From a virus, in the IMG/VR virus record IMGVR_UViG_3300040801_002693, positions 64,001-113,978 of that record: a DNA stretch of 49,978 nucleotides; one strand, 5' to 3'. The translations under genes and the position numbers were made by a program. Below the pieces are notes generated by a model. That model was not told the DNA's origin and made no database searches. It saw nothing but the letters and a program-made list of their open reading frames with translations. Each line of letters starts with the position of its first letter. The first letter of the stretch is position 1. Positions 1 to 41,793 of the stretch are shown piece after piece.

Positions 1-3000
1 AACAGGCGGCGCAGAATTTGATCGGCCTGCGCCTCGGTGGGGGCAGCATTGTTCGGAGCGGTACGGGAGAAGCGCGGGTCTTGTTGTGCCGGATTGAAGC
101 GTTGCGAGAGCGGAATGATGTTCCCGTTGTCGTCGTAGGTAACGGCATCCAGGAGTTTGTGGCTCACATGACTGAACTGAGGATCGTACCCCAGGTCACC
201 CAGGTTTAAGGTATCGAATTGCCCGCTCTTATTCGTGTTCCATAACTGCCGTGGAACCTTAAGAGCATCCAGTTCCGTATTCGTTTCTTCCTGCGACAGT
301 ATCCGATTGATCTTAACCGACCCCGCAATACGCCATTTCCCTAAATCGGGACGATCCGCAAACAGGGGGTTAGTGGCGTATTCGTAGTAGCCGCCTTTAG
401 GGATAAACCGCAAACCGGACTTCTGCTTGTTGATACTGCCATCGGCGTTGCGTTCGGCAGTATCCAGATATTCCTGATGGTAGTCACGATCCGCATCCAT
501 CTCGACTTCCGCAATGACGGTATCGAACTCGTGGACATTTGGATAGGCGTAACCGTCCGCCACTTCCTTGATAAGCTTCTTGCCTTTATGAATGACCTTA
601 TTCCCGGCCTGCGGAAAGAACGGAAGTTCTCCTCCATGCCAACCCGGACGATAGGCGACCACCTTGATAGACTTTACGGTGGGTTTTTTGATATACCCGC
701 GCTTGAGTAATTCGTCTCGAACAGTGTCATTCGGGATGGGTACGGAAACGCCGGTATCTGCCGGGATGTACTCGCGGCCATTGGTGCCGGTGAAGTGGTA
801 ACCGCCCTCAGTGGCGTCAATCCATATCCCAACCGGAAGATCATCTTTAGCGCCCACAAACATTGGATAGAGCTTCCCGTCCCGCATCCTGAACGCTTTG
901 TACGCTTTAATGGTCTTCTTGGGTGGCGGGGTGCGGCGAACCTGATAACCCACATTCTCTGAATCATTAGTCAGGATCGGCAAGTCTGAGGCTTCTGCTG
1001 CCTCATTCACCAATCGTTGTGCGGTTTCCATATCCCCGCGTTGTACCGCCTCCAGATAGGCGGCATCCTGATCGTTCTGTGTACTGCTACCTAACATCCC
1101 CAACAGGGTTTCAATTTGATTTGGTAGGCTCTCCACAACCCCATCGCCGGGAACTGCGATCTCGATATCCTGACCTCGTTCCGCCGCCAATGCGATGCGA
1201 TGTCGGCCATCTGCAATACTTAAGCGATTTATATAAGGCGTTACACCCACCATCGGATGCGCGTCCCAAACCGGGCTGTTACGCAACTTCTCCAGACGTT
1301 CCGGCTTATGCACCAGGGGTTCGTTGTTTTGGCGCTCAAATTCATCCTTAAGACGCGCCGCGTTCACACGAATGATTTGGGTATAACCGATATCCATCCG
1401 CGCCTTTTCGTTGCGGCTGGATTCCGAGATGGTGGCGAGGTCATTAAAAAACCCGGCTTGTGCCGGGTTCTGTGTGCGAGAGTAGTAAAGAGGGGTTATG
1501 GCTTCATCTAGTCGCTCAGAATGCAACTGTTGTGTAATCCAAGCCAGTAGTGCATTCCGTACTTCTCGTCCATTTCCTTGTAAAAGGGTATGTGCAACCG
1601 CTGCTCTCTTAAGCGTTGTGCTGCCCGCAAACGCCGGTTCGGGTCGATCATAGTTTCCAGACTCATCTCGGACGGGGAAGAAGGATTTAGCGAGTGTTTG
1701 GAACCACGCTTCACTGACAGGTTTGCCTGTTTTTTGATTAATGAATCGCTTTTCGGTAGTGTCATAGCGAATATCCTGGATGGCGGGTAGATCGTTGCTA
1801 ATCAACTCAACAGAACGCTTGAGTAATTGCACGACATTATACCCGTCATTACCCGCCTGCCACGGAATATTTTGATCCTCGTGCGGCTCCATAAACGAGG
1901 TGGTGCCGTACTTGAGCGCCAGGGAGATCATGTGCTCCAGACGACGAGCGATACCTGCCGGGGAGATGCCTGCCGTGTCACCGACGAATTTCAGATTGTT
2001 GCGCAAGGCAAACGCGCCGACAACCTGATACAGTTCACTCCCCATCGAGGTGCCGCTATTCAATTCAATAGCATTCAGCATCACCCGGTCGCCTTCCTTG
2101 ATGACCGTAGCAACCCGCCCATCACGCATCGTCAAATCGACCGTCCAATCCAACTTGTACTGCGCCCGGTATGGATTATCCCGACTGCGATCCGGTCTGG
2201 AGACTTGAATCTCAGGGTCAATTTCCTTCGCCAGCGCATCCAGGGTCTTGCCTTGCAGTTTCGGCGACTTGAACAACTCAGGACGCTGCGCTAACTTTTT
2301 CAGGTCTTCGGAGAGGCGTTCATAATCTTCGACTGTGAGGGTGTCGAGAGGTATGGGAGAGTAATCAGACTCTTGCTCCTTAACAGTAACCGCCTTATCT
2401 GTCGTTCTACCCATGATTCCGGTAGATCGACCGAGTTTGTTTTTGGCGCGATAGGTCAGTGAATCACCATCCCTTAATAAATCTTCAAACAATCCTGAAT
2501 CATAGGCTTTCTTTTCATTTTCATCAGAAAATGATTTTGGAAGATTAACCGCGAATAAAGTCGCGCTACCGGTTGATCTCGCGATACGACGAGCTTCCGC
2601 CGCAAGACGCATCGGGTTGCGCTGTAGTAAATCAACAGGAACAGAAACAATAGCTCTAATCCCATCACGATGGGTTCCGATAACTTGGAACCAATTACCG
2701 TCGTGACTACGAATTTCATCAGCAATTTCTACTAATTGCGGGTACTTTGCTATCTGTCTTCCGATTAAAGGATGAGCAATCGCAGGTTCTCCGCCGACCT
2801 GATAACGAGTGGGGTCATTTAAGATTGAATCCGGCAATTGATGTATTGAAACATCACCGTTATCGGAAATAAAAGAGTACTGCGTTTGATCGACGACAAC
2901 ATGACCTGCAATCGGTAGATATTTTGCTAAAGCCTGTGTAGAAGTAATATCCGCAGGTGATGGCGAGGGATCGCCTGACGGATGGTTATGGACGACCCAA

Positions 3001-6000
3001 ACCGAATCTGCACCTAATTGCAGTAGGTCATTCTGAATTTGCGCGGAACCTTTATCAAAAGAGGTATCCATGCCTGCAAAAATATTCGAGGTTGCTGGTA
3101 AGCGACTGGATACGCTGTTTTGCCCAACAACCTTCCCGTCCTTCGTATAGAAAACCCGGAAGGTTTCAAAACTCGGGTTACGGTAAATTTGTGCTAGAAC
3201 AGCGAGGTCTGTTCCATTTTCGATGGTTTGCCCGATGAGGCTGGTGGAGCCGTTTTCGATATAGTCTCGGGTAATAGCGGAACCCAGTACGGTTCCTGGT
3301 ATCCGCCGCAAACCTCGAAGGGTATCCGAAACGCTCTTCTGTGCGGCCTCCAACTTGGGGTCGGAGGGGCCAGCAAGTTCGTTGGGAGCGAAGAGGTCTT
3401 TCTGTAGAAGTGAAACTCGGTGAGTCCGTTTTCTGGGGGCTTTGACGGCATCAATAGTCTCCTCGTCATTAAAGATGTACTCATTATCCGCCTCATTGAC
3501 CTGCCGACCCAACACATTTTCTGCGGTCAGGTTGCGCGTAGTGTCGCTAATCGCGCCCTTTACGACGGCCTGCTGATTGTTTAAGCGCTCTTGCAGAATC
3601 TTTGCCCAGCGGAAGTCAAAGTCATCCGGCATATTGGCGGCGAACAACCAATGCACGTTCGCCTGGGATTGAAGGCCGTACCGAGTAATACGCCCGCTGA
3701 CCTGTTCAAATTCGGAGGCGGTGTAGGGAATAGCGACGTTGTACTGGAAGGACTGGCGATCCCCTGCGGTGTCATGCAGAGACAACCCAGTTCCGCCCTT
3801 ATCCATCGTAGCAATCAGAATACGCGGGCCGGACTTCGATGCCTTCCAGGATTCCCGGTTTTCGGTGTTCTGCTTGTTGGTTAAATCCCCGTTGTAATCG
3901 ACAATCCCCTTCTTGCCAAACGTCGGTTCCAGGTACTCTTTCAGGATATCGACCGGGGATTCCAGGCGCATATCGGACATCCCGGCGTCCATAAACGCCT
4001 GCGCCATGTACTTCGCATAAGCCGAAAACATCCCCAGGTTTTCTTCGGTCTCGGTGATCGGGTTGTACTTCATCACCCCTAGATAATCAGACCACTCCGC
4101 CTCCAGTGCGGCCATCTCGTTGCTGTCGAAACGCTTCCCACTCAGTTGGGTCTTGAGTTGATTGAGCGCGCCGATTGCACGAGTCTTATTGTTTTGGTAC
4201 TTACCTAACGCCACCGCAGCGACTAAAGGAGAGTTCTCGCCTTCATCAATCGCCTTGTTGATCTTGTTAAGAATCCGTCGTTCTCCGGTTTCATCTTCCT
4301 TATCCTCCCAAACCTCGAACCGCCCGAACTCCATCGGCGCTTTGACCTTCACGAAGACCACGGCTTTTCGATCCGCCTGTTTCGCTAAGTCCTTTTTAAT
4401 CAGTTCTGCGGTCGCTTTCAGCTTGCCGATTTCCGCCATGCGCTTTTTGACGTTCTCGCGCTGCATGATGAAAACCGACTTTAAGTGGCTTGCCTCGGGA
4501 TCGGCCAGCGCCGTATCAAACAGCGCCACCACCGGCAGGTAGTAGTCCTGGTAGAACGTGGCATCAATATCAATCGGTGTCAGGTGAGTCTGCGAAGCCG
4601 CCTTGCCATTCTTGAGTGCGCTCAGTTGGATCGGGCGATGAGTCAGCAAGTTGCGATCCATGAACCACTGACGCGCTTCCTGACCGGCCTCCAGTTGAGT
4701 CAGCATGAACTCCAGGTGATCCGCCTCAAAGCGCTGAATCGCGGCCTGTCGATCGCCGGTCGATTGATTGGCGACACTCTCGAACTTCGGCGCTTTCGGC
4801 CAAGCGATCGTCAATGATTTGTAGCCCAGCGCATCCGACTTTTCCTTAATGGTTGCGCCATGCTCAACCGCCCAAGTCTGGAACCCATTCAGGCGCGTAC
4901 CCTTGTATTCCAGATTCTCTTGTTGCGCTAACTCGTCGTATTCCTCAAACAACCCGCTCCTAGCCAAATAAGCCGACTCACTCGGAGTCTCAAACGGGGT
5001 CGCGCTGGAGTAGAAGGTGAACTTGGAGCGTTGCATCAACTCCCCGGCGTTGACTGCGCCTGCGCCGGAATCCAGGATATTCTTGACCTTGTGCGCTTCA
5101 TCGAATATCAGGATCGTGTTCTGATCGACCGTAATCCGGGTTTCGCCTTTATTGAAGGTGATTGTGCTTTTGCCCGCTTCATGCGTGATTTCGGCATTAT
5201 TCGGGTTCTGAATCCGGGCATAGGTAATCAAGTCCACGCGCCCGTCATTGATCCCGTAATCCGGTAAATCCTTGTTGCGAATCTGGTCAATCAGGGTATT
5301 GCTGTTGGTGAAGAACAAAACCCGCGTGTTGGGGTTCTCGGCCAGCGCCTCACGAATAAACCCACCAATCGAGAAGGTCTTTCCGGCCCCTGGATCGGAG
5401 GACAGCATGAACGCGGGCTTCCCTTCCCGGTAGTTGGTGAGCGCCTTTCCGATGTCCTCGATTTGCCAATCGACGACCTGGCGGGGCATTCCTACTTGGA
5501 GGCCGCGCTCGATAAGAGATACTGTTGACCCACTAACTTGTCTTCGATAATCTTCTGGAGTGCGCTGTTGGGGGGCCACTCGGTTGCGGAGGTAATCAGT
5601 TGATCTTGTGAGTCCCCGAATGCGGTCTCGTAGTTCGTCAAGTACTGCGTCACCGCTTCCTCGTACAGTTCCGGGTCGGTTTGCCGTACTGAAAATACGA
5701 CCTCTTTCGATGGAGGTTCCGGCATCTTTGGCAAGGGCATAAGCAAGTCCTTCTCGAATCGCTTCGTGGTGATAATCAAGATCACCGATCATTTGATCGA
5801 CAATCTGCTTAATCGTACTATTATCGGCTTCCGTATCCAGGTAATCCTTGAAAACCTTCTTCACAAACGCTTTTAATTTACCCTTAAACGGGCCGGACAC
5901 GAAAACTTCGTGGTTTGCGGTATTCGATCGGGCAAACGAGTAAAAACTGTGATCAACATCAAAATGTCGGGCGATATTTGGGTTGGCTGAAAACAGGGGT

Positions 6001-9000
6001 GTTTCGCTGTTTGATTCGTAAGGAACACGCACAACAATGCTAGACTGTAACCCCTTACTCCATGACCACTGTGTCGGTGAAGTCAGAACCCCGTTCTGTT
6101 CCAGAATCCCATCAACCGTGATGTTTTCGACTGGAGAAGTCTCGGTAGTTTCTTCAAGATTTCCAGCAACATAATCCCGCGTAAACTGCTTGGCATACGG
6201 CTCAAAGCGATCCATAAACTGATCAATCTGATCGTCATTGAAACCCTGCTTAACCAGCATATCCTCCAGATATTCGACCAGCGCATCAATAATTTCCCGA
6301 ATCGTGCGAGTCGCTTTACCGAAATGTTCGACCGCCACCAGGAAATGCTCCTTCATCTCCTCGTATTTCTTCTTATCAAAACCGATCGGCAAAGGTAAGC
6401 TGGCTGGCCCCTCCGGCATCAGCGCATCAATCATCGCTTTCGCGGATTTCGCTATACGTCTTGCGCCTGCGGCTAAATCACTCGCATCCTCGGCGGCGGC
6501 TTGCGCAATACGTTCCCCACGAGAAGGGGCGGCAGGTTCGGTGGGCGCTTCTGTCGGGGCAGCGTTTTCAGTTGGCGGTGGGGGGTTACGACGATTGCTC
6601 CGACGTGCTTTTGCGGCAGCACGGCTTTCCCTCATCTCGCGATCATATTCATCTTCCTGAGAACCTTGATCGGTAGGCGGCTGTTCGGCGGTGGGCGGTT
6701 GCTCTTGGTTACCAAATCCGGGTTCGCTCGGTGCATTCTTGTCATTTTCTTTTTCCGTAGGCCAAGGAGTACGGTCATCCGGGTCTTCCTCTTTCTCAAC
6801 CCACTTCCCGTCCTTCAACACCTTGTTATCCGGTACGGCCATGCGTGTCCCGTCATTATCCTGTTCAATGCGATAATGATCGGGTAGGGTGATTCCGGCG
6901 CGTTCGACAAGATCGGCTTCGATGACTTGATTATCGTTCAGGTCTACTTTGATAGCTTCGATCAAAGCAGCGTCAAGCGGCGGGGTCTCGGGTGCGGATT
7001 CGATCGGAGTTGCGGGCGGGATGTAGTCGAGGATTTCGCTGCCCAGTAAATCGTCACCCACTAACTCCAGGTCGCCTGCTTGCTCACGAATCTTGCGGCC
7101 AATTTCTTCAAAGTCGTGTGACTTGATAACCGAAATCATGTTGCCTTCTGGCACCATGTTTCCTTTGGCGTCAATAGTAGAACGACGCCCTTTACGTGAC
7201 TCTCTTAGTTCATAAAGACCCACTGTATCTTTAACGGGGCGCACTTCCCAGACATGATCAACCGGTTTTCCATTCTTATCTTGTGTGTGCGCAATCGCCA
7301 GTTGGTAGGGCAGATTATTCCACTGTTCGATATTTTCCTGGTTCGCTATCTCATTCTGGCGTTTCTGGTATTCATCCATTCCTTTTGACGTATAAACCGG
7401 ATCACCTCCAAACGCGGCATTAATCGCATTCGTAAGGGCGCGACCGGAATAACCGGCAGTACCGTCATCTTGACCGTAATAACTTGCATCTCGATTCGCA
7501 CTCTCAAAAACAGGATACCCAAACTGCGAAAGCGCCTCCGCCATTCCATCCAGCGATAATGACCCGTTCTGCGAAAACACATACAAACCTTCACCCAGAT
7601 TATTCGGAGAACGATTTAAGTTCATTCCTTGAATTACAAACTCGCTCAACAAACTACTGTTTAATCCGCCATGCTTGGCAACTGCTTTTAGAATATCGTC
7701 TTGCTCGGTATCGACCTGGCGCATCTCCATTACCGGGTCGCCTGCTTCTCGTGCCGTCTTTCTCGGGGGAGCCGGGGGCGGGGTATTCGGCGTCGAACCG
7801 GTTGAGGTTGGGGGCGGCGTTGAAGTGGGAGGCGCAGCAGATGGGGGTGGGGTATTCGGGGTGTTCGGAGCCGCAGAAGTCGGTGCAGTGGGTTTAGCAG
7901 CGGCAGGCGCTTTCGGAACTAAGGTCGGAGCGGTCTCAAAGCCCTGAGAAGCCGCTTGCGCCACCAACTGTTCGTGCGTCGTCGCATCCATCTCAGGTAA
8001 ACCGATGGCTCGCGCAATCCGATTCCAGACCGGAAGTGGGTGCTCAAAGGCTTTAAACGGCTGTGCGGCGTGAGTATCCCGAATCTGTTTCGGCGTCATC
8101 CGACGCGGCGTGAGCGGCGCTTTCGGCGTGGGATTTTCCGGGGCGGGTAAGGCGATAGGTTTGGTTTTCGGCGTAGCCGCTTGCGCCTGTTTTGTCTGAA
8201 TCTCAGCGAACTTCTGGCGCAGCATTTCAACGACAGTCGAACCACCTCCGCTGGTATCCACCTCGGTCACAGAGCCGGTTAAGGGGTTAGTGAGAGTGGC
8301 GGTTTTAGGGGCAACCGAAGCAAGCGGGCTGTTGGCCGTACCGAGGGCTTGCGTTGTGACATCAACCGAACCGAGGCCGGAAGGCGATGAAGGAGCGGCA
8401 GGGGTTGCCTGAGTTGGATTTAACGTCTGCGCAGATGCTTGAGACAACAATTGCGCCGCTTGGCCGCGAATCTCTCGGTTTGCAAAGAGCTTATTGTTTG
8501 CAAAGAAATTCGTTTCAATTTCGGAAGGTGTTAAACCGCGCCCGATATTTTTTGCGGCGGTTTCCACCATCCTGCCGACGCTGCGAATTTGCTCATTAAA
8601 ATTCAGGCGTTCTTCCGGGGCGGACGGGTTATTGCTCCAGGCTTGAAAATTATCCTCTGATCCTACCAGATTATAAAATTCGTTCATCCCGGTAGGGGCG
8701 GCCTGGGCTTGCTGCTTTCTTAAAGGGAACGCACCGACAATCCGCTCAGGAGGAATAACTCCAGGCGATCTTGTTGGGTCATTGTGCAAACGAAATTCTT
8801 CTGGCGTGAGATCAAAAACCACAACCCGCTGATGATCGCCTTGGAAACGAGGATCGTTCGGTTCGATATCTATGTTTTGTTCGTCATCCGCAATTCGTGC
8901 GGTACTACTAATCATTCCTTGGTTTTCGTAAGACAGCCCATTCATAATGGAACTATCTGCTGAATCTTGGGAAGTAATATGGGTAAGCCGAATCATTCCT

Positions 9001-11816
9001 TCTGGTTTTTTAGGGATGTTCGGATTCACCGCTCCTGCCAGTGGAGAAGCGGGGTTACTCTGACCTACCGGGGTTTCGGCTTGGGCTTGCACTTCTTGGC
9101 GCTGTTGAGCATCGAAGTTTCCTAGTTGAGATTGAAGTCCCGGCCCGGTGGGGGTCGGCATTTGTGTCTGAGCGAGACCTGAGACACCCAGGGTTTCCTG
9201 CCCGGATGCTGCCGTCACTGGACTGACCGCATCCTGCATCCGTTGGGCGCGACCCGCTTCAATACGCGACCGCTCGTTATCGATGATTCGTGCATCTTCT
9301 GGTGTCGGCGGAGACAGGCGCATCTGCTCTAACTGTGCCAGTTGCGTGTCTTCCTGAGTGCGTAATGCTTGCTCTTGCGGGGAACTCAGGAACGCTTCCG
9401 GGGTAATACCAGGCGTTGCAGGAACCGCCCTATTGGCCCGCCATTGCCCGCTGCTACCTAACGGAGAAGGGGTTTCCGGGGTTGCAACCGGCGCGTTCTG
9501 GCGCTCTACAACCACTTCATTCAGTGCATCCTGAAAACTCAGCGGTTCGGTGCGAGGGGCATTATCCGGCCCGGTAAAGCGGCGCTGCATTGTTAGGCGA
9601 GACAGTTCAGCAGGATCGGCTTGCAAGCCCTGTGCGGCCTCTTGTACAGCAGTCAGTTCCTCATCCAGCGTTTCCAGGCGCTTGTCGAACACCTGATTCC
9701 AGGTCGGGGACTGCTTCTCAAAAGTCTCGTCGGGGACTTGTTGCCGCAGCGCATCAAACTGGATCGGGTCTAACTGTTCCAGTTCACCCCATCCGAACTG
9801 TCCGTCCACGCGATTCAGGCTGTCCTGTTTGATCGCATCATTCAGGGTTTGCGTGTTGACCCGCAACAGGTTTTGAGCGCGTTCTTTCGGGATAGAGAAA
9901 TCTTGATTCGTACCGACATCCCGTAGCACGATCTGATCGTCTTTGGCTTCGACGATATCGAACAGCCGATTATTCGGGTCATCCGAGAAGATCACCTGTT
10001 CGCCGGATTTAGGCGGCTTTTTGGTCTCAAACGGTGCGGCGTGATTGCGTACCTGGGTCGGGTCATTCCGGGAGATGACGGCATCAATCTCCTCGGGCGA
10101 CATCCCGGCTGCGCCTTGAATTGCGGCTTCCGGGGCGGTATTGGGATCAACAGAGCCGGGGTTCGTAGTGCGGAGCAGGTCGAGTTTCTTTTGATTGAAT
10201 GTCAGACCCGCCGAACCTAGCGTCCCCTCCATATTCTTCAAGCCTTGAAGATCAATGTCACCGGTCGGGTTATCAGCATTATCAACCCAACCCGTCAATC
10301 CAGGACTGTCATTCCCCAGAAAGCTCAACAAACCTTGCTGTTTCTGCGGCTTCATTGACTGCCAGAGTTCACCGAGAACCTGCTCGCGTTCCGCCTTAAT
10401 GTCTGGCGTTTCTTCAACACGCGAATGCAGTTCCGCGTTGATGTTGCCGACGACTTCCGCCAACTGCTCGTTGCCGGTCTTCCGCTGCAACCAGGGGCCG
10501 AGGATCGCCAGATTCTCCAATGACTGATCCGGCATCGCGGCCAGGATGTTCGGGTCTTCACCCAAACTGACCAGCGCCTCTGCATCGCGGGGATTCTTGA
10601 CGAACTTCTCGTGTATCTTAGAACCGACCTTCACGCTGCCGCCTGCGAGACCCATCATGCCGACTAAGGCGAGGGTTGCGGGTGCAACGTCCTTCGTGGC
10701 CTGCCAGAGACCGCCGACACCTTCATATTGCTTCTCAGCAGAATCCGCAGGCTTCCCGGCAACTACGGCTTCCATGCGTTTCTGGTCGTTGCCCTGATGG
10801 TATTGAGTGACGCCTTCTGTGGCGACCTCACTACCCACACCAGCCGCCAATGCCCCCGCACGAATCCCGAGTTTCTTGAAGGCTCCGCCCGTGATTTTAG
10901 AGATCGCTTCTTTGCCGAGGAACTTTAAGGCGATACCGCCGCCGGTCAGCATTAAGGCATTACCTACCGCTTCCGGGCCAGCTTCCCAAAGACCGGTATT
11001 TTCGGCGATAGGACGTAACGCCTCATATAGTGTGGCCTTTTCTTCCTCGTTCAGCCCACGACCCTGTTCTTTCTGCGACTTCAATTCAGCGGCCTTAAAG
11101 CCGTCGTTCATGGTCTGATTACCGGCCATACGGTAAGCCGCTGCGCCAGATGCGCCCATCGCGGTTACTGCGCCACCCACCAAACCAGAACCCGGTAACG
11201 GAACCATCGCCTGAGTCGCTGCGCCACCGGCCAGACCTGCCGGAATCGCCGCCGCCATCGAGACCCCGCTAAACCCTAAACTCGGGATTGCCTCCAGAAT
11301 CGACTCGCTGACCGAATCGGTGTCACCTGACTTGGCTTGCGCCGCTGCCTTTTCCTCTAAATCCTGCTGGAGTTTTTCTTGCGCTTCAAACGCGGCGATC
11401 GCTTCGGGCGAATACTCATCCGGGCGCTTGAGACCTTCTTTGAATTGATAGTAGGCAGAGGTAACAGAGGTAGGCAGGCTCTTACCGGCTTCCCAAAGGG
11501 CGCTACCGGTATTACTGAGATCGAAGAAGGGTTTTTCTTCTTCCGGGGGTTGCGAGGGCGCGTAGGCGTTCTGATAGGCCGCGAACTGCGCCTCATTCAT
11601 CGGTTGATCGGGGACGTACTGATTCAAACCATTCGCAACGCTTCCGGCCCCTGAATAATTGGGGAGAAGGGCATTGATATCAGGCAGGGCGCTATCGCCA
11701 AGTCCCTGGCGATAGGCGTCAACTAAGGAGTTTTCATCGAAAACCGGCAACGCAGGATCAACAGAAGTTGGAACCACAGGGTCATTTAGGGATTCTTCGT
11801 CAAACCAAGTTGCCAT
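1..11816 (-). CDS. Giant polyvalent protein with SF2 helicase, RadC-like JAB and ParB-like domains (3' end outside window)
   Basis: One uninterrupted frame of at least 3938 codons from ATG at 11816 runs off the left edge. Seen in order: Gly/Ala-rich hydrophobic stretch (residues about 200-350); possible ADP-ribosyltransferase-like segment (about 935-1030); a segment resembling domains of phage polyvalent proteins (about 1375-1425); Pro-rich linkers; helical region; SF2 helicase with Walker A DPGAGKT (2141-2147), DEAH (2239-2242), SAT (about 2268), motif V (about 2668) and motif VI GRITRYG (about 2703); RadC-like JAB with HNHPSGDPSPSPADI (from 2943); ParB-like DGRHR segment (about 3535); and a YRPGWHGGELP motif (about 3725). 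Such helicase/JAB/ParB combinations are known from polyvalent proteins of phages and conjugative elements, thought to be injected with the DNA and to counter host defences. That role is inferred here. No methyltransferase domain, often fused to such helicases, was recognised in the visible part. Confidence 0.9.
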   Translation of the reverse strand, partial: MATWFDEESLNDPVVPTSVDPALPVFDENSLVDAYRQGLGDSALPDINALLPNYSGAGSVANGLNQYVPDQPMNEAQFAAYQNAYAPSQPPEEEKPFFDLSNTGSALWEAGKSLPTSVTSAYYQFKEGLKRPDEYSPEAIAAFEAQEKLQQDLEEKAAAQAKSGDTDSVSESILEAIPSLGFSGVSMAAAIPAGLAGGAATQAMVPLPGSGLVGGAVTAMGASGAAAYRMAGNQTMNDGFKAAELKSQKEQGRGLNEEEKATLYEALRPIAENTGLWEAGPEAVGNALMLTGGGIALKFLGKEAISKITGGAFKKLGIRAGALAAGVGSEVATEGVTQYHQGNDQKRMEAVVAGKPADSAEKQYEGVGGLWQATKDVAPATLALVGMMGLAGGSVKVGSKIHEKFVKNPRDAEALVSLGEDPNILAAMPDQSLENLAILGPWLQRKTGNEQLAEVVGNINAELHSRVEETPDIKAEREQVLGELWQSMKPQKQQGLLSFLGNDSPGLTGWVDNADNPTGDIDLQGLKNMEGTLGSAGLTFNQKKLDLLRTTNPGSVDPNTAPEAAIQGAAGMSPEEIDAVISRNDPTQVRNHAAPFETKKPPKSGEQVIFSDDPNNRLFDIVEAKDDQIVLRDVGTNQDFSIPKERAQNLLRVNTQTLNDAIKQDSLNRVDGQFGWGELEQLDPIQFDALRQQVPDETFEKQSPTWNQVFDKRLETLDEELTAVQEAAQGLQADPAELSRLTMQRRFTGPDNAPRTEPLSFQDALNEVVVERQNAPVATPETPSPLGSSGQWRANRAVPATPGITPEAFLSSPQEQALRTQEDTQLAQLEQMRLSPPTPEDARIIDNERSRIEAGRAQRMQDAVSPVTAASGQETLGVSGLAQTQMPTPTGPGLQSQLGNFDAQQRQEVQAQAETPVGQSNPASPLAGAVNPNIPKKPEGMIRLTHITSQDSADSSIMNGLSYENQGMISSTARIADDEQNIDIEPNDPRFQGDHQRVVVFDLTPEEFRLHNDPTRSPGVIPPERIVGAFPLRKQQAQAAPTGMNEFYNLVGSEDNFQAWSNNPSAPEERLNFNEQIRSVGRMVETAAKNIGRGLTPSEIETNFFANNKLFANREIRGQAAQLLSQASAQTLNPTQATPAAPSSPSGLGSVDVTTQALGTANSPLASVAPKTATLTNPLTGSVTEVDTSGGGSTVVEMLRQKFAEIQTKQAQAATPKTKPIALPAPENPTPKAPLTPRRMTPKQIRDTHAAQPFKAFEHPLPVWNRIARAIGLPEMDATTHEQLVAQAASQGFETAPTLVPKAPAAAKPTAPTSAAPNTPNTPPPSAAPPTSTPPPTSTGSTPNTPPPAPPRKTAREAGDPVMEMRQVDTEQDDILKAVAKHGGLNSSLLSEFVIQGMNLNRSPNNLGEGLYVFSQNGSLSLDGMAEALSQFGYPVFESANRDASYYGQDDGTAGYSGRALTNAINAAFGGDPVYTSKGMDEYQKRQNEIANQENIEQWNNLPYQLAIAHTQDKNGKPVDHVWEVRPVKDTVGLYELRESRKGRRSTIDAKGNMVPEGNMISVIKSHDFEEIGRKIREQAGDLELVGDDLLGSEILDYIPPATPIESAPETPPLDAALIEAIKVDLNDNQVIEADLVERAGITLPDHYRIEQDNDGTRMAVPDNKVLKDGKWVEKEEDPDDRTPWPTEKENDKNAPSEPGFGNQEQPPTAEQPPTDQGSQEDEYDREMRESRAAAKARRSNRRNPPPPTENAAPTEAPTEPAAPSRGERIAQAAAEDASDLAAGARRIAKSAKAMIDALMPEGPASLPLPIGFDKKKYEEMKEHFLVAVEHFGKATRTIREIIDALVEYLEDMLVKQGFNDDQIDQFMDRFEPYAKQFTRDYVAGNLEETTETSPVENITVDGILEQNGVLTSPTQWSWSKGLQSSIVVRVPYESNSETPLFSANPNIARHFDVDHSFYSFARSNTANHEVFVSGPFKGKLKAFVKKVFKDYLDTEADNSTIKQIVDQMIGDLDYHHEAIREGLAYALAKDAGTSIERGRIFSTANRPGTVRGSGDAVLDELRDRIRGLTRSTDYLRNRVAPQQRTPEDYRRQVSGSTVSLIERGLQVGMPRQVVDWQIEDIGKALTNYREGKPAFMLSSDPGAGKTFSIGGFIREALAENPNTRVLFFTNSNTLIDQIRNKDLPDYGINDGRVDLITYARIQNPNNAEITHEAGKSTITFNKGETRITVDQNTILIFDEAHKVKNILDSGAGAVNAGELMQRSKFTFYSSATPFETPSESAYLARSGLFEEYDELAQQENLEYKGTRLNGFQTWAVEHGATIKEKSDALGYKSLTIAWPKAPKFESVANQSTGDRQAAIQRFEADHLEFMLTQLEAGQEARQWFMDRNLLTHRPIQLSALKNGKAASQTHLTPIDIDATFYQDYYLPVVALFDTALADPEASHLKSVFIMQRENVKKRMAEIGKLKATAELIKKDLAKQADRKAVVFVKVKAPMEFGRFEVWEDKEDETGERRILNKINKAIDEGENSPLVAAVALGKYQNNKTRAIGALNQLKTQLSGKRFDSNEMAALEAEWSDYLGVMKYNPITETEENLGMFSAYAKYMAQAFMDAGMSDMRLESPVDILKEYLEPTFGKKGIVDYNGDLTNKQNTENRESWKASKSGPRILIATMDKGGTGLSLHDTAGDRQSFQYNVAIPYTASEFEQVSGRITRYGLQSQANVHWLFAANMPDDFDFRWAKILQERLNNQQAVVKGAISDTTRNLTAENVLGRQVNEADNEYIFNDEETIDAVKAPRKRTHRVSLLQKDLFAPNELAGPSDPKLEAAQKSVSDTLRGLRRIPGTVLGSAITRDYIENGSTSLIGQTIENGTDLAVLAQIYRNPSFETFRVFYTKDGKVVGQNSVSSRLPATSNIFAGMDTSFDKGSAQIQNDLLQLGADSVWVVHNHPSGDPSPSPADITSTQALAKYLPIAGHVVVDQTQYSFISDNGDVSIHQLPDSILNDPTRYQVGGEPAIAHPLIGRQIAKYPQLVEIADEIRSHDGNWFQVIGTHRDGIRAIVSVPVDLLQRNPMRLAAEARRIARSTGSATLFAVNLPKSFSDENEKKAYDSGLFEDLLRDGDSLTYRAKNKLGRSTGIMGRTTDKAVTVKEQESDYSPIPLDTLTVEDYERLSEDLKKLAQRPELFKSPKLQGKTLDALAKEIDPEIQVSRPDRSRDNPYRAQYKLDWTVDLTMRDGRVATVIKEGDRVMLNAIELNSGTSMGSELYQVVGAFALRNNLKFVGDTAGISPAGIARRLEHMISLALKYGTTSFMEPHEDQNIPWQAGNDGYNVVQLLKRSVELISNDLPAIQDIRYDTTEKRFINQKTGKPVSEAWFQTLAKSFFPVRDESGNYDRPEPAFAGSTTLKRAAVAHTLLQGNGREVRNALLAWITQQLHSERLDEAITPLYYSRTQNPAQAGFFNDLATISESSRNEKARMDIGYTQIIRVNAARLKDEFERQNNEPLVHKPERLEKLRNSPVWDAHPMVGVTPYINRLSIADGRHRIALAAERGQDIEIAVPGDGVVESLPNQIETLLGMLGSSTQNDQDAAYLEAVQRGDMETAQRLVNEAAEASDLPILTNDSENVGYQVRRTPPPKKTIKAYKAFRMRDGKLYPMFVGAKDDLPVGIWIDATEGGYHFTGTNGREYIPADTGVSVPIPNDTVRDELLKRGYIKKPTVKSIKVVAYRPGWHGGELPFFPQAGNKVIHKGKKLIKEVADGYAYPNVHEFDTVIAEVEMDADRDYHQEYLDTAERNADGSINKQKSGLRFIPKGGYYEYATNPLFADRPDLGKWRIAGSVKINRILSQEETNTELDALKVPRQLWNTNKSGQFDTLNLGDLGYDPQFSHVSHKLLDAVTYDDNGNIIPLSQRFNPAQQDPRFSRTAPNNAAPTEAQADQILRRL
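1445..1469 (-). terminator. Terminator-like hairpin inside the giant coding sequence
   Basis: On the minus strand a perfect 8-bp stem (AACCCGGC / GCCGGGTT) with loop ACAA is followed by a run of six T including the stem's last two. This is the form of a rho-independent terminator. It lies in frame inside the giant gene and encodes NPAQAGFF, just upstream of the ParB-like segment. Whether it works in a translated message is unknown; translating ribosomes normally suppress such hairpins. Confidence 0.6.
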
Positions 11817-11867
11817 TGTTTTCTCCAACAATCATGCAAAGCGAACGACCGAGGGTTTATCGGTAGT

Positions 11868-11920
11868 TGAAATTCGGGGAATTCCAGTTATCAAGGATTC
11901 CTTGACACCTGAAATTCGGG
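11868..11920. promoter_or_regulatory. Paired direct repeats and palindrome upstream of the giant gene
   Basis: The 11-mer TGAAATTCGGG occurs at 11868-11878 and again at 11910-11920. The copies are 42 bp apart, about four helical turns, and lie in the same orientation. Between them is the 15-bp palindrome TCAAGGA-T-TCCTTGA at 11891-11905. The cluster lies 50-105 bp upstream of the giant gene's start and downstream of the terminator at 11924-11946. This arrangement looks like a protein-binding region controlling that gene, but no convincing core promoter was found beside it. Confidence 0.4.
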
Positions 11921-11923
11921 CAT

Positions 11924-11946
11924 AAAAAAACCCGTCGAAGCGGGTT
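11924..11946 (-). terminator. Intrinsic terminator closing the structured RNA
   Basis: On the minus strand AACCCG-CTTCGA-CGGGTT forms a GC-rich hairpin followed by seven or more T. It ends the transcript predicted from the promoter at 12162-12190 and separates it from the giant gene, whose start is about 110 bases further on. Confidence 0.75.
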
Positions 11947-11963
11947 ACGATTTAAAATGGTAG
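11945..11963. promoter_or_regulatory. Degenerate copy of the CTACCAT-N5-ATGGTAG operator
   Basis: TTACGAT-TTAAA-ATGGTAG keeps the 7-5-7 geometry of the palindromes at 12166-12182 and 49717-49735. The right arm is perfect and the left arm matches at five of seven positions. It abuts the -35 of the plus-strand promoter at 11969 and overlaps the terminator arm. Confidence 0.4.
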
Positions 11964-11968
11964 TTCTG

Positions 11969-11997
11969 TTGACAGCAGTGATAAATAGGATTAGTAT
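11969..11997 (+). promoter_or_regulatory. Plus-strand sigma70-type promoter facing into the RNA locus
   Basis: TTGACA at 11969-11974 is followed by a 17-bp spacer and TAGTAT at 11992-11997. It would start a transcript near 12004 that is antisense to the candidate RNA and then to the gene at 12192-14111. No plus-strand gene follows, so an antisense or interference role is the simplest reading. Confidence 0.45.
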
Positions 11998-12137
11998 TCA
12001 ATTAACCCTCGGCGCGAGGGTGTATCGGGCATGGAGGGAAACGCTATTAAAGGTTCCCGTTGAAGTGCCAACCCGGCTGGTTTACCGTAAGACCGGGAGC
12101 GGTCGCCTAACGGCGTCTAGCCCTATAATGACAGGGC

Positions 12138-12159
12138 TACCATAGCCCTCCACGGTAGC
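12138..12159. promoter_or_regulatory. Additional inverted-repeat site with 8-bp spacer
   Basis: CTACCAT-N8-ACGGTAG lies just downstream of the minus-strand -10 box. Its left arm is identical to the operator arm, the right arm differs by one base, and the spacer is 8 instead of 5 bases. It may be a secondary binding site, or only part of the RNA fold. Confidence 0.3.
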
Positions 12160-12161
12160 GA

Positions 12162-12190
12162 TATATACCATACTGCATGGTAGAAGTCAA
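12162..12190 (-). promoter_or_regulatory. Promoter with palindromic operator in its spacer
   Basis: The minus strand shows TTGACT (12185-12190), a 17-bp spacer and TATATA (12162-12167), starting two bases after the stop codon of the 12192-14111 gene. The palindrome TACCAT-N5-ATGGTA (12166-12182) occupies the spacer and touches the -10 box. A bound protein would block RNA polymerase. The same promoter and palindrome layout recurs upstream of the KilA-N gene. Confidence 0.65.
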
Positions 12191-12191
12191 A

Positions 12192-18135: not shown

Positions 18136-21100
18136 TTAGTAGCTGTAGTTATGCGATTCAGTACAACCACTGGATTGTGACGTACCGTGGTTGTACCCAA
18201 TGCTGGCCGACGCATTCACCGCACTCATCGCGGCACCCGCCAACTGCGCCGCCACCCGCGCCACTTCACTCTCTCCCTGAAGCGCGACCTTTGCCATCTC
18301 GATCACTTTGGTCTGTTCCATCTCAGCTTCTTTGAGTGCAATGCTGGTTTCAAACTGCGCCTGACGGAGTTGCTGGTCGATATTCTGTAACTCGGCACTC
18401 ACTCGGGCCTTTTCAGCCTCAACCAACGTCCCAAAGAGCTGCGTTTGTTGACCATGCACCTTGGCCTTCGCATCCAGTTCTGTAGCGGAGCGTTGTAACT
18501 CGGCCCGATACGCCTCCAGCTCACTACGGAAGGAGTCCAGCTTCAGTTTTTCAATATCCACTTTAGCTGCGGCATCCTCGCGGGCTGCGGTAACCTTACT
18601 CGCATACCCAGACACTTCTGCGGCGTAGGCTTGGGTTTCTGCCTTATAGATTTCGAGAGGCAGTTTCGCAATCTCGACCTCCGCTTGGGTTTTCGCGAAT
18701 TCCGCCTGTACTTTTTTGCCGTAGGCATCCACCTCGGCCACATAGACCTGGGTCTCTGCTTTGTAAGCTTCTAAATCCAGTTTCGCAATTTCCACTTCGG
18801 CCTGAGTTTTTGAAGCTTCCGCTTGTACCCGCTTACCATACGCATCAACCGACGCTATGTAAGTCTGAGTTTTAGCCTTGTAAGCTTCTAAATCCAGTTT
18901 CGCAATTTCCACTTCGGCCTGGGTCTGAGAGGTCTCCGCTTGCACCTGCTTCCCAAAGGCATCTACTTTAGTTGTATAGACTTGCGCTTCAGCCTTATAA
19001 GCCTCCATCGGTAGCTTCGCAATCTCTACATCGGCTTGTACCCGCGCAGATTCTGCTTGCACTCGCTTGCCGTAAGCGTCTGCTTTAGAGGCGTATGCCT
19101 GCGCCTTAGCCTTGTACGCCTCAAGAGGCAACTTCGCCACCTCTACTTCCGCCGTCACTTGCGCCCGCTCGGCGTCAACAAGCTTACCAAAAGCATCCAC
19201 CTCAGCCGTATAGGCTCCGATCTCGGTCCGATAAACCTCGGCACCGAGTTTAGCGACCTCGGTCGCAGCCGTTACCCGTGTCCGCTCAGCGTCAATATTC
19301 TTCCCATAAATATCCACCTGGGTTGCGTAAACGCCCGCCTGGGTTTTATGGTCCTCCAACCGCAGTCGCTCAATATCCACTTCTGAAGCGACTCTCGCTT
19401 GCTCCGCCTGCACCTGCTTGCCGTAGGTATCCACTTTGGTCGCGTAGACTGTGGCGGCGGTCTGGTGTGCTGCGAGTTTAAGCTTGTTCTCCTCGTTCCC
19501 AATATCCGCTTTCGCCCGCTCAGCATCGACCCGCTTCCCGTAGGCATCCACCTGGGTTGAGTAGACCATCGCCCCCGCTTTGTAGGCTTCCAGCCCCAGT
19601 TTCCCGATCTCGATTTCCGAGGTGACCCGTGTCCGGTCCGCTTCCACCTGCTTCCCGTAGGCATCGACTTCAATCCCGTAAGCCTGTACAGTCGCTTTAA
19701 ACGCCTCTACCTGGGCAGAATCGGCTTGCACCCCGGCGGTATACCCGCGCCATTCTGCTTCGTAGGCTCCCACTGAAGCTGTGTACGCCTGTACTTGTTT
19801 AGCGAACGCTTCCAGTTTGAGTGTTTCTGCTTGTATCTGGCTATTTGTCGCCTCGATCTGCGTCTTATACAGGTTGACCTTGGTCATTACCCCTTCCAGT
19901 CGAGCCTTATATAAATCCACTTCCTGGCGGTTTAAATCGACAAACACCTTAGAGATGTCCGCCTCAACCTTGGTGATCTCCAGTTTACCCATCTCCGCTT
20001 GGAGCTTAGCGCTGATATAATCCTTATAGACGCTCGCCTCCGTCTGCCAAGCATCGAGCTGGGCCTTGTACATCGCCAAGGCCGCTTCCAGCACTTTCAC
20101 CTGAACGTCGATAAACTTGTTGGCTAGATCACCACATACGCTCCATAATTTCGTCTTGGTATCCCAGAACGCGGTCTGGTACTGAATCCCTGACGTAACA
20201 GCAAACCGCAAGTTCTCGATCTCCTGCTTGGTTTCCTCAATCCACAAATCCCGATTGAGTTCCCCTTTCTTATCCCGGCTCTGTTGACGCACTGAGGCAA
20301 GTTTGGCCTCCAGAGCGCCCCCTGGGAGCGTAAAGCCACGCGACAGCCAGTCACTGATCGCCGTCTGCTCCGCTTGATAGGCCAGCCGATCTTCCGCTGC
20401 GAAAGCGCGATCCCGAAGCAGAATCGCTACGGAAGCAGGAATACCTGTTGATCGCCCTTCCAGCATCCAGCGCACCACCTCATCCACGGGCAATACGGGA
20501 GTCAGGTCGGTCCCTAAATCCCCCCGGAGATGGTGAAAGGTGCTCAAAAACCCATCTGTGGGTAACGACAATACCGGCGCGGTTGGTTTTCCGTTTCGGA
20601 TAGCGTCCAGAATACCGTCGATCCCTGACAAATCCGGGATGCGTAACGTCGGCAGCGGGATGCTATAGCTCTGAGGGTCTACCGGAGTCGAAAAAGAAGG
20701 CTTTTGTGGGTACTGAGGGATAGTAATGTCTGGGGCGCTCCCCGGAGACCGGGCGCTTAAACTGGGTGCTGTTTTCGGAGTGGGGGAAGGAACCACCCCA
20801 AAACTCGCTGTCGGCACCGTAATGGACTGAGAAGCAATAGAAGGCACTCCTTCATACCGATCAGAAAACTCTGTAGGGGGTGTTACGCTCCCGAGAACAA
20901 CGCTCGTAGGACTGAAGACCTCGGTAAAATCACCTGGAAGCGGGGCGGCGTTGAAACTCGGAGCGTTGGGGGTGAAAGTATTCGAGAACGGTTCCGGGGT
21001 TTGGGGGGTAACGAACGTCTGCACCGAAGGCACAGAGTATCGAGTGTATGACGGACGGGGTAATCCGGGGCGATTAAAAGTAATAGCCCCTGGCGACTCT

Positions 21101-41007: not shown

Positions 41008-41793
41008 TTAAGCTGCGTACTGCGCTACGCCGCGTAAACCTACGGCGGTATTCGGGTCAGCCACGCGGATATAGGCCATCAAGGTCTTCGCCCCATTCAG
41101 CACTCCATTCGGGTCAAGCGTACCACGCACGTCGCCGGTGACCGCTGTAGCCGGATCAGTGGTGACCGCAGGAACGATGGTGGCGGCATCAACCGCATCA
41201 TCGAACCAAACGCTCAATACATCCGATTTGCTGGCGATCTTGTAGGGGAAACCCAGAACATCGCCAAACCCTAAGTTCAGCGTGTTCGTTGTGGCATTCC
41301 CTGCTGCGGTAATGGCGATAGACTCAATATAGGCAAACGCCTTCAAGCCGGTCGCGGCCTTCGCTGTTCCACCAGCAGTAATACTCAGAGTCTCAACCAT
41401 CTTGACCTGGTACTCGTCATAACCCGTAATCGTGAGGGTCATTGCCAAAACAGCGGAGGCATGAGTCACTGCTGCGGTGATATTGCGTGGAACATCCAGC
41501 GCCATTACGGTCTGGCCGTTGACGGTTGTAGTCGTCAACGCAGAAGAAGGATCAAGCGGGGAGGTTCCGTTGGTGGCAGCGGTATAGGTTTTTGTGTCGG
41601 CGTTCGGCAATTCCGTTGTGGTCGCAGCATTCACAATCCCAGCAGCAACCGCAACTTTGGGTGCGCCCAGGTCAATCTTGGTGATGAAATCCACAGGAAC
41701 GCCAGCGCGGCCATTCCGGCCAAAAACGCCGCCGTCGTAGCCACCGCCGACAAAAATCTGATCGGCGCGAGTAATCGAGTGTTTAGTGCTCAT
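41008..41793 (-). CDS. Virion structural protein, probably abundant
   Basis: A 261-residue protein starting MSTKHSITRADQIFVGGGYD. It is rich in Ala, Thr and Val, with a beta-like core and a central KMVETLSITAGGTAKAATG. There is no enzyme motif. It has its own leader with promoter, terminator hairpin and stem-loop, and a strong terminator behind, so it is probably highly expressed. It follows the capsid gene, consistent with a head decoration or tail tube-like protein; which of these cannot be told. Confidence 0.7.
   Translation of the reverse strand: MSTKHSITRADQIFVGGGYDGGVFGRNGRAGVPVDFITKIDLGAPKVAVAAGIVNAATTTELPNADTKTYTAATNGTSPLDPSSALTTTTVNGQTVMALDVPRNITAAVTHASAVLAMTLTITGYDEYQVKMVETLSITAGGTAKAATGLKAFAYIESIAITAAGNATTNTLNLGFGDVLGFPYKIASKSDVLSVWFDDAVDAATIVPAVTTDPATAVTGDVRGTLDPNGVLNGAKTLMAYIRVADPNTAVGLRGVAQYAA

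Follow-up and report, generated by a model that had tools for sequence, protein, structure and literature searches.

A phage RNA homologous to TnpB guide RNAs, present in two copies behind its own predicted promoter

The window is a stretch of 49,978 nucleotides (bases 64001-113978 of the 113,978-base virus record IMGVR_UViG_3300040801_002693) and contains, in a gene-free gap, a structured RNA on the plus strand that is homologous to the right-end guide RNAs (reRNAs) of TnpB; a second copy lies elsewhere in the same record. The homology is solid, and the function we infer. Judged from sequence, it is very probable that the phage RNA originated from a TnpB reRNA, and the earlier sequence-only reading, which recognised no known RNA class at this locus, is superseded on that point. 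The scaffold is already known in kind; no case of a phage-borne, promoter-driven, inserted and TnpB-less form was found in the literature searched, which lies outside key subscription papers.

An Rfam scan at the gathering threshold returned only a tRNA; a relaxed scan placed RF03015 (Transposase-2) at 12062-12122 of the plus strand with 41.3 bits (E 4.5e-7), which falls slightly short of the 42.7 bits required for gathering, and copy 2 has no Rfam match. A covariance model, R1, was built from 19 TnpB-type reRNAs (18 from bacterial genomes and one from another viral contig) with the phage excluded and helices H2, H3 and H4 included; two of the 19, L012 and L021, have no nearby TnpB. Over the 114-kb record, R1 finds copy 1 (12028-12155, plus) at 49.3 bits (E 2.2e-9), copy 2 (record 41518-41658, minus) at 25.8 bits (E 4.7e-4) and no further noteworthy match, the E-values being rough owing to a short calibration. 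In 150 kb of other viral loci the strong matches are true TnpB reRNAs only, with the next best at 14 bits, and the TnpB reRNA L068, held out of the model, scores 60.8 bits. Both phage copies are in this way recognised as scaffolds homologous to TnpB omega/reRNAs by a model of bona fide members.

From sequence comparison, RF03015 looks like the core of the IS607-type TnpB reRNA, which would explain the name Transposase-2. True members were located in actinobacterial genomes using a pattern for the RF03015 core; most of the bacterial members extend over the 3' ends of TnpB genes, which carry the Pfam domains OrfB_IS605 and Cas12f1-like_TNB (PF01385 and PF07282), and they terminate in AACGG followed by variable flank. 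The members are thus arranged like right-end guide RNAs of TnpB, whose scaffold adjoins the GG crossover in IS607 (PMC10711439). No paper was found that equates Transposase-2 with the core of the IS607-type TnpB reRNA.

The virus is a tailed phage that encodes a terminase large subunit, a portal, an SU10-type adaptor and an RNR; among its other products are a replication initiator, ParA-like and ParB-like proteins and a regulator from a transcription-regulation family, from which we infer that it may be a temperate phage-plasmid. The record is without end repeats and may be incomplete or a fragment, and several of its ORFs have no family assignment. The N-terminal stretch of the terminase large subunit (L027:4762-6867) matches HNH endonuclease families, with the terminase part after it, and a 1190-aa gene contains internal direct repeats of 64-70% identity (window 18613-19670, self-match). 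The 375-base island that the sequence-only reading noticed beside a giant gene is confirmed: it spans 11817-12191, between the ATG of the giant minus-strand gene and the stop of a 639-aa gene. The giant gene (G000:C1:55951-75816, window 1-11816) is a single open frame of 6621 codons that lies mostly inside the window and runs on leftward past it. A 62-aa plus-strand ORF crosses the copy-1 cassette and has no counterpart in copy 2; a protein-coding role for the island was therefore rejected, and from sequence the locus is most likely non-coding.

The cassette common to both copies comprises promoter and scaffold and in copy 1 occupies 184 bp of the plus strand (11960-12143), with 74.1% identity over 170 aligned positions. 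Its sigma70-type promoter, TTGACA-17-TAGTAT, had been read as pointing into the island; it is confirmed at 11969-11997 with a score of 10/12 and a predicted start at about 12004, while a scan of 900 bases gave two promoter-like sites against 0.9 expected by chance. From this promoter a structured RNA is predicted at 12004-12145. A 5' hairpin, ACCCUCG-gcg-CGAGGGU (12005-12021), stands at the predicted transcript start; the reRNAs of insertion sequences have a 5' hairpin in the same place, but with the loop AGUGG/C. The candidate 5' strand of a pseudoknot, AUGG (12031-12034), pairs with CCAU at 12140-12143 and is followed by helix H2 (12036-12058), in which GGGAA (12036-12040) pairs with UUCCC (12054-12058) in columns that covary across reRNAs; the phage H2 is without the inner UAAGACC hairpin found in the reRNAs of insertion sequences. 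The conserved core (12062-12122) is the RF03015 match and consists of H3, with a GUAAGA internal loop at 12087-12092, plus H4. Helix H5 (12118-12139) is the 3' hairpin that precedes the scaffold end; its UAGCCCU/AGGGCUA stem, proposed earlier, is a perfect 7-mer inverted repeat and is retained in copy 2 as UAGCCUU/GGGGCUA. The proposed closing stem UGGAGGG/CCCUCCA is likewise a perfect 7-mer inverted repeat, but it spans scaffold and guide region, is absent from copy 2 and is probably not a closing helix.

The first suggestion of a structured non-coding RNA that has a promoter of its own is well supported, on the opposite strand to the one proposed. The plus strand is assigned because of homology (R1 scores it at 49.2 bits, against 8.6 for the minus strand) and not because of folding energy. 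When folding was compared with shuffled sequences, 270 nt of the plus strand (11922-12191) gave z -3.9, with no shuffle equal, and 250 nt of the minus strand gave z -2.4; the 142-nt scaffold alone gave z -0.95 on plus and -3.0 on minus, and fold energy does not identify the strand. Of the minus-strand promoter described earlier, the hexamers TTGACT-17-TATATA can be read (12189-12161), but the site fails in the promoter scan and has no equivalent at copy 2. In window 12161-12183 this promoter-like site overlaps the candidate copy-1 guide and includes, between its hexamers, a palindrome, TACCATACTGCATGGTA, which is a possible operator. The intrinsic terminator is present on the minus strand (AACCCGCTTCGACGGGTTTTTTTAT, 11946-11929), but it is absent at copy 2 and is not part of the RNA gene; it probably closes an upstream late operon. 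Since they are not shared with copy 2, the minus promoter and terminator need not belong to the RNA. The terminator stretch (window 11917-11955) shows 92% identity by blastn to a stretch present in four Klebsiella phages, and a similar stretch also occurs at G000:C1:105848-105882; in blastn searches with the island and the cassette, the terminator stretch alone was found in phages and nothing was found in plasmids.

The helices of the scaffold are supported by covariation. When 12 reRNAs were aligned with the two phage copies by MAFFT, from sequence only, 96.6% of the helix cells of H2-H4 were paired, and 18 of 20 pairs showed changes on both sides; the covariation score is 0.76, whereas shuffles give 0.19 and slid partners no more than 0.15, and 0 of 500 shuffles equal it. 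The covarying stems H2, H3 and H4 of reRNAs are therefore found in the phage RNA, with the inner part of H3 absent in copy 2. In each copy, four consecutive pairs of the candidate pseudoknot join the 5' (A/G)UGG to the CCAU of the scaffold end; they keep the register that CGUGG x CAACG has in other TnpB-type reRNAs, with A-U or G-U in place of G-C. Judged by sequence, the phage RNA is compatible with a pseudoknot in the register of the insertion-sequence reRNAs; a pseudoknot (PK2) is described at the corresponding position in ISFba1 (PMC11061315).

Copy 2 is a 172-bp cassette on the minus strand, 34 kb from copy 1 (L029:1556-1727, which is G000:C1:41556-41727 of the record). Both promoter hexamers, TTGACA and TAGTAT, are identical to those of copy 1, with a spacer of 18; the 5' hairpin, H2, H4 and H5 are kept, and H3 is without its inner stem and GUAAGA (GUNAGA) loop. 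In addition, neither copy has the UAAGACC hairpin within H2 or an AGUGG/C loop on its 5' hairpin, so binding of TnpB is not assured. Copy 2 has an exonuclease gene (PF12684) on one side and a phrog_3657 gene on the other, and the 9-bp sequence CGTTCATTT directly adjoins both of its ends as an exact direct repeat (L029 1736-1728 and 1555-1547); the counterparts of these two genes overlap by 4 nt in Bordetella phage PY223. This repeat and the overlap in PY223 show that copy 2 was inserted, with a 9-bp duplication, just upstream of the start of the second gene. Copy 1 has no flanking direct repeat; a possible 13-nt terminal inverted repeat (85%) is seen at copy 1 and is weak in copy 2. Such a 9-bp target duplication is not expected of the IS607 family. 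An IS607 element would have a GG end, a serine TnpA and no longer target duplication; the phage scaffolds end in CCAUAG and CCAUCG, and copy 2 carries the 9-bp repeat.

Identity between the copies is 74% over promoter and scaffold, whose end is ...GGCTACCAT, and drops to 29% past that end; this step, at ...CCAT, falls at the expected border of scaffold and guide; the two copies thus fit an arrangement of scaffold plus guide, with a variable sequence directly 3' of the scaffold as in reRNAs. In copy 1 the candidate guide region consists of AG and then CCCUCCACGGUAGCGAUAUA (12144-12165), immediately 3' of the scaffold end ...GGCUACCAU; from the sequence the guide probably begins at 12146 and extends to 12165. 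A scaffold end at CCACGG (12155) was considered and dropped, as identity with copy 2 stops at CCAT. The candidate guide of copy 2 is UUCAUUUCAUUCCUUAAACC (L029 1553-1534), and the reduced core of this copy weakens its reading as a guide. Neither candidate has a match elsewhere in the phage; that of copy 1 has no plasmid match and matches phages at chance level only.

Searches of the possibly incomplete 114-kb record with PF07282, with PF01385 and by tblastn with five TnpBs found no TnpB. Whereas reRNAs are encoded at the 3' end of a tnpB gene or across it, no such gene was found for the phage copies, and no tldR (TnpB-like) gene adjoins the RNA in the phage record, as in TldR-gRNA modules. Pattern scans of IMG/VR detected the stand-alone form in no further phage; two other IMG/VR viral contigs (29 kb and 160 kb) bear a TnpB gene whose 3' end has an RF03015-like reRNA, and the rest of the matches were chance (L054:5407-6936, and L068:768-2312 on the L060/L068 contig). 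Protein searches of IMG/VR returned only an identical 18-kb fragment, and the carriers in that collection are this phage and the one identical fragment, with no independent relatives found. A model termed R2 matched two of 398 genomes from the phylum of a Gammaproteobacterium; one of them, G280, has real TnpB reRNAs, and none of the reRNAs in the matched genomes is close to the phage form. Copies without TnpB also occur in Micromonospora and relatives, where reRNAs of the same type (L012, L015, L021, L025, L026 and L011) have no TnpB homolog by tblastn in the DNA examined; these are apparently non-autonomous elements, with several copies within one genome, and stand-alone scaffolds thus exist in bacteria.

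The reading considered most likely, at roughly even chances, is that of an orphan, mobile, promoter-driven TnpB guide-RNA cassette that acts via TnpB supplied in trans. That the RNA is transcribed and maintained is probable, and if it is, action through TnpB in trans is somewhat favoured. The cassette's own promoter would drive an RNA made of the scaffold and a guide, the guide being copied, as it is in insertion sequences, from the DNA next to the cassette; the transcript would fold into the reRNA scaffold and would load a TnpB made by the host or by a co-resident element. As the guide would be the insertion flank, its natural target would be the allele of related phages that has no cassette at that site; by attacking such DNA the complex would favour the carrier. 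The broader proposal, that phages carry mobile, promoter-driven orphan TnpB guides which reprogram or jam the transposon nuclease of a host in trans, with guides renewed from the flank at every insertion and aimed at cassette-free rivals, is put forward tentatively; such RNAs would be the TnpB equivalent of viral mini-CRISPR arrays and of RNA anti-CRISPRs.

The principal rival readings are a relic and a decoy. The cassettes may instead be relics or non-autonomous elements, that is, a shrunken insertion sequence (MITE- or PATE-like) bearing reRNA-derived sequence with no current function in the phage; the TnpB-less copies in Micromonospora contigs, the direct repeat around copy 2 and the possible inverted repeat at copy 1 are consistent with this. 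It is considered rather doubtful, however, as the terminal repeat of copy 2 is weak and promoter hexamers and main stems have been retained in both copies despite 26% divergence. A decoy, by analogy with the Racr RNA anti-CRISPRs and in keeping with the counter-defence role first suggested, would mimic the guide of a host TnpB and tie up TnpB or a Cas12-like nuclease non-productively, the guide sequence being irrelevant; such a role is unlikely, since nothing indicates that host TnpB restricts the phage and an inserted cassette whose end coincides with the guide border is typical of mobile elements, yet it would fit the unrelated flanks that form the two guides, the loss of core elements in copy 2 and a protein-less unit right behind a promoter, which is the layout of viral solitary repeat units (PMC10651486).

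That the phage itself encodes the partner, a TnpB or a dead relative of the TldR type, in a missing part of the record or in a form too diverged to detect, is very unlikely: the absence of end repeats and the several ORFs without a family leave room for it, but the domain and tblastn searches were negative and the TnpB-sized ORFs near copy 2 look different. Least probable is the minus-strand, multibranched RNA with promoter and terminator of the sequence-only reading, or an antisense switch between opposing promoters, for which no support was found. The minus hexamers and terminator do exist and the minus scaffold folds well against shuffles; homology nevertheless favours plus, both minus signals are absent at copy 2, and the G-U pairs in the H5 of copy 2 would become A-C on the minus strand.

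TnpB guide RNAs are known within transposons or beside domesticated TnpB or TldR genes. Here a phage has the guide part alone, in two copies, each behind a promoter and one showing signs of insertion, which suggests that viruses use or inhibit the TnpB of their hosts in trans, as is the case for CRISPR; if true, TnpB would gain a place in phage-host or phage-phage conflict. The phage RNA resembles IS607-type TnpB reRNAs (RF03015; ISXfa1, PMC10711439; RAGATH-18/ISFba1, PMC11061315) in its core GAAGNGNNAACC..GUNAGACC..GGAGC, helices H2-H4, 3' hairpin, pseudoknot register and variable guide after the scaffold; it differs from them in residing in a phage, in having no upstream tnpB, in the promoter of its own at the 5' hairpin, in the shortened H2 and other 5' hairpin loop, and in the 9-bp direct repeat at copy 2. 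Prophage TldR with its guide RNA (PMC13418256) is likewise a case of a TnpB-family guide RNA borne by a phage; however, a dead TnpB protein is encoded beside the RNA there, and no such gene was found here. Racr RNAs and solitary repeat units (PMC10651486) are stand-alone, promoter-driven mimics of a guide scaffold in phages without the nuclease, and are alike in layout only: the RNA described here mimics a TnpB guide and not a CRISPR repeat, and inhibition is only hypothesised for it, unlike for the Racr RNA anti-CRISPRs. Viral CRISPR mini-arrays exploit host CRISPR against related viruses (reviewed in PMC11656645); as in the proposed cassette, the virus carries the guide, the host supplies the effector and related viruses would be the targets, whereas the phage guide is of TnpB type, single in each cassette and derived from the insertion flank. 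Viral mini-arrays and solitary repeats (PMC11656645) are the closest analogues of the phage cassette.
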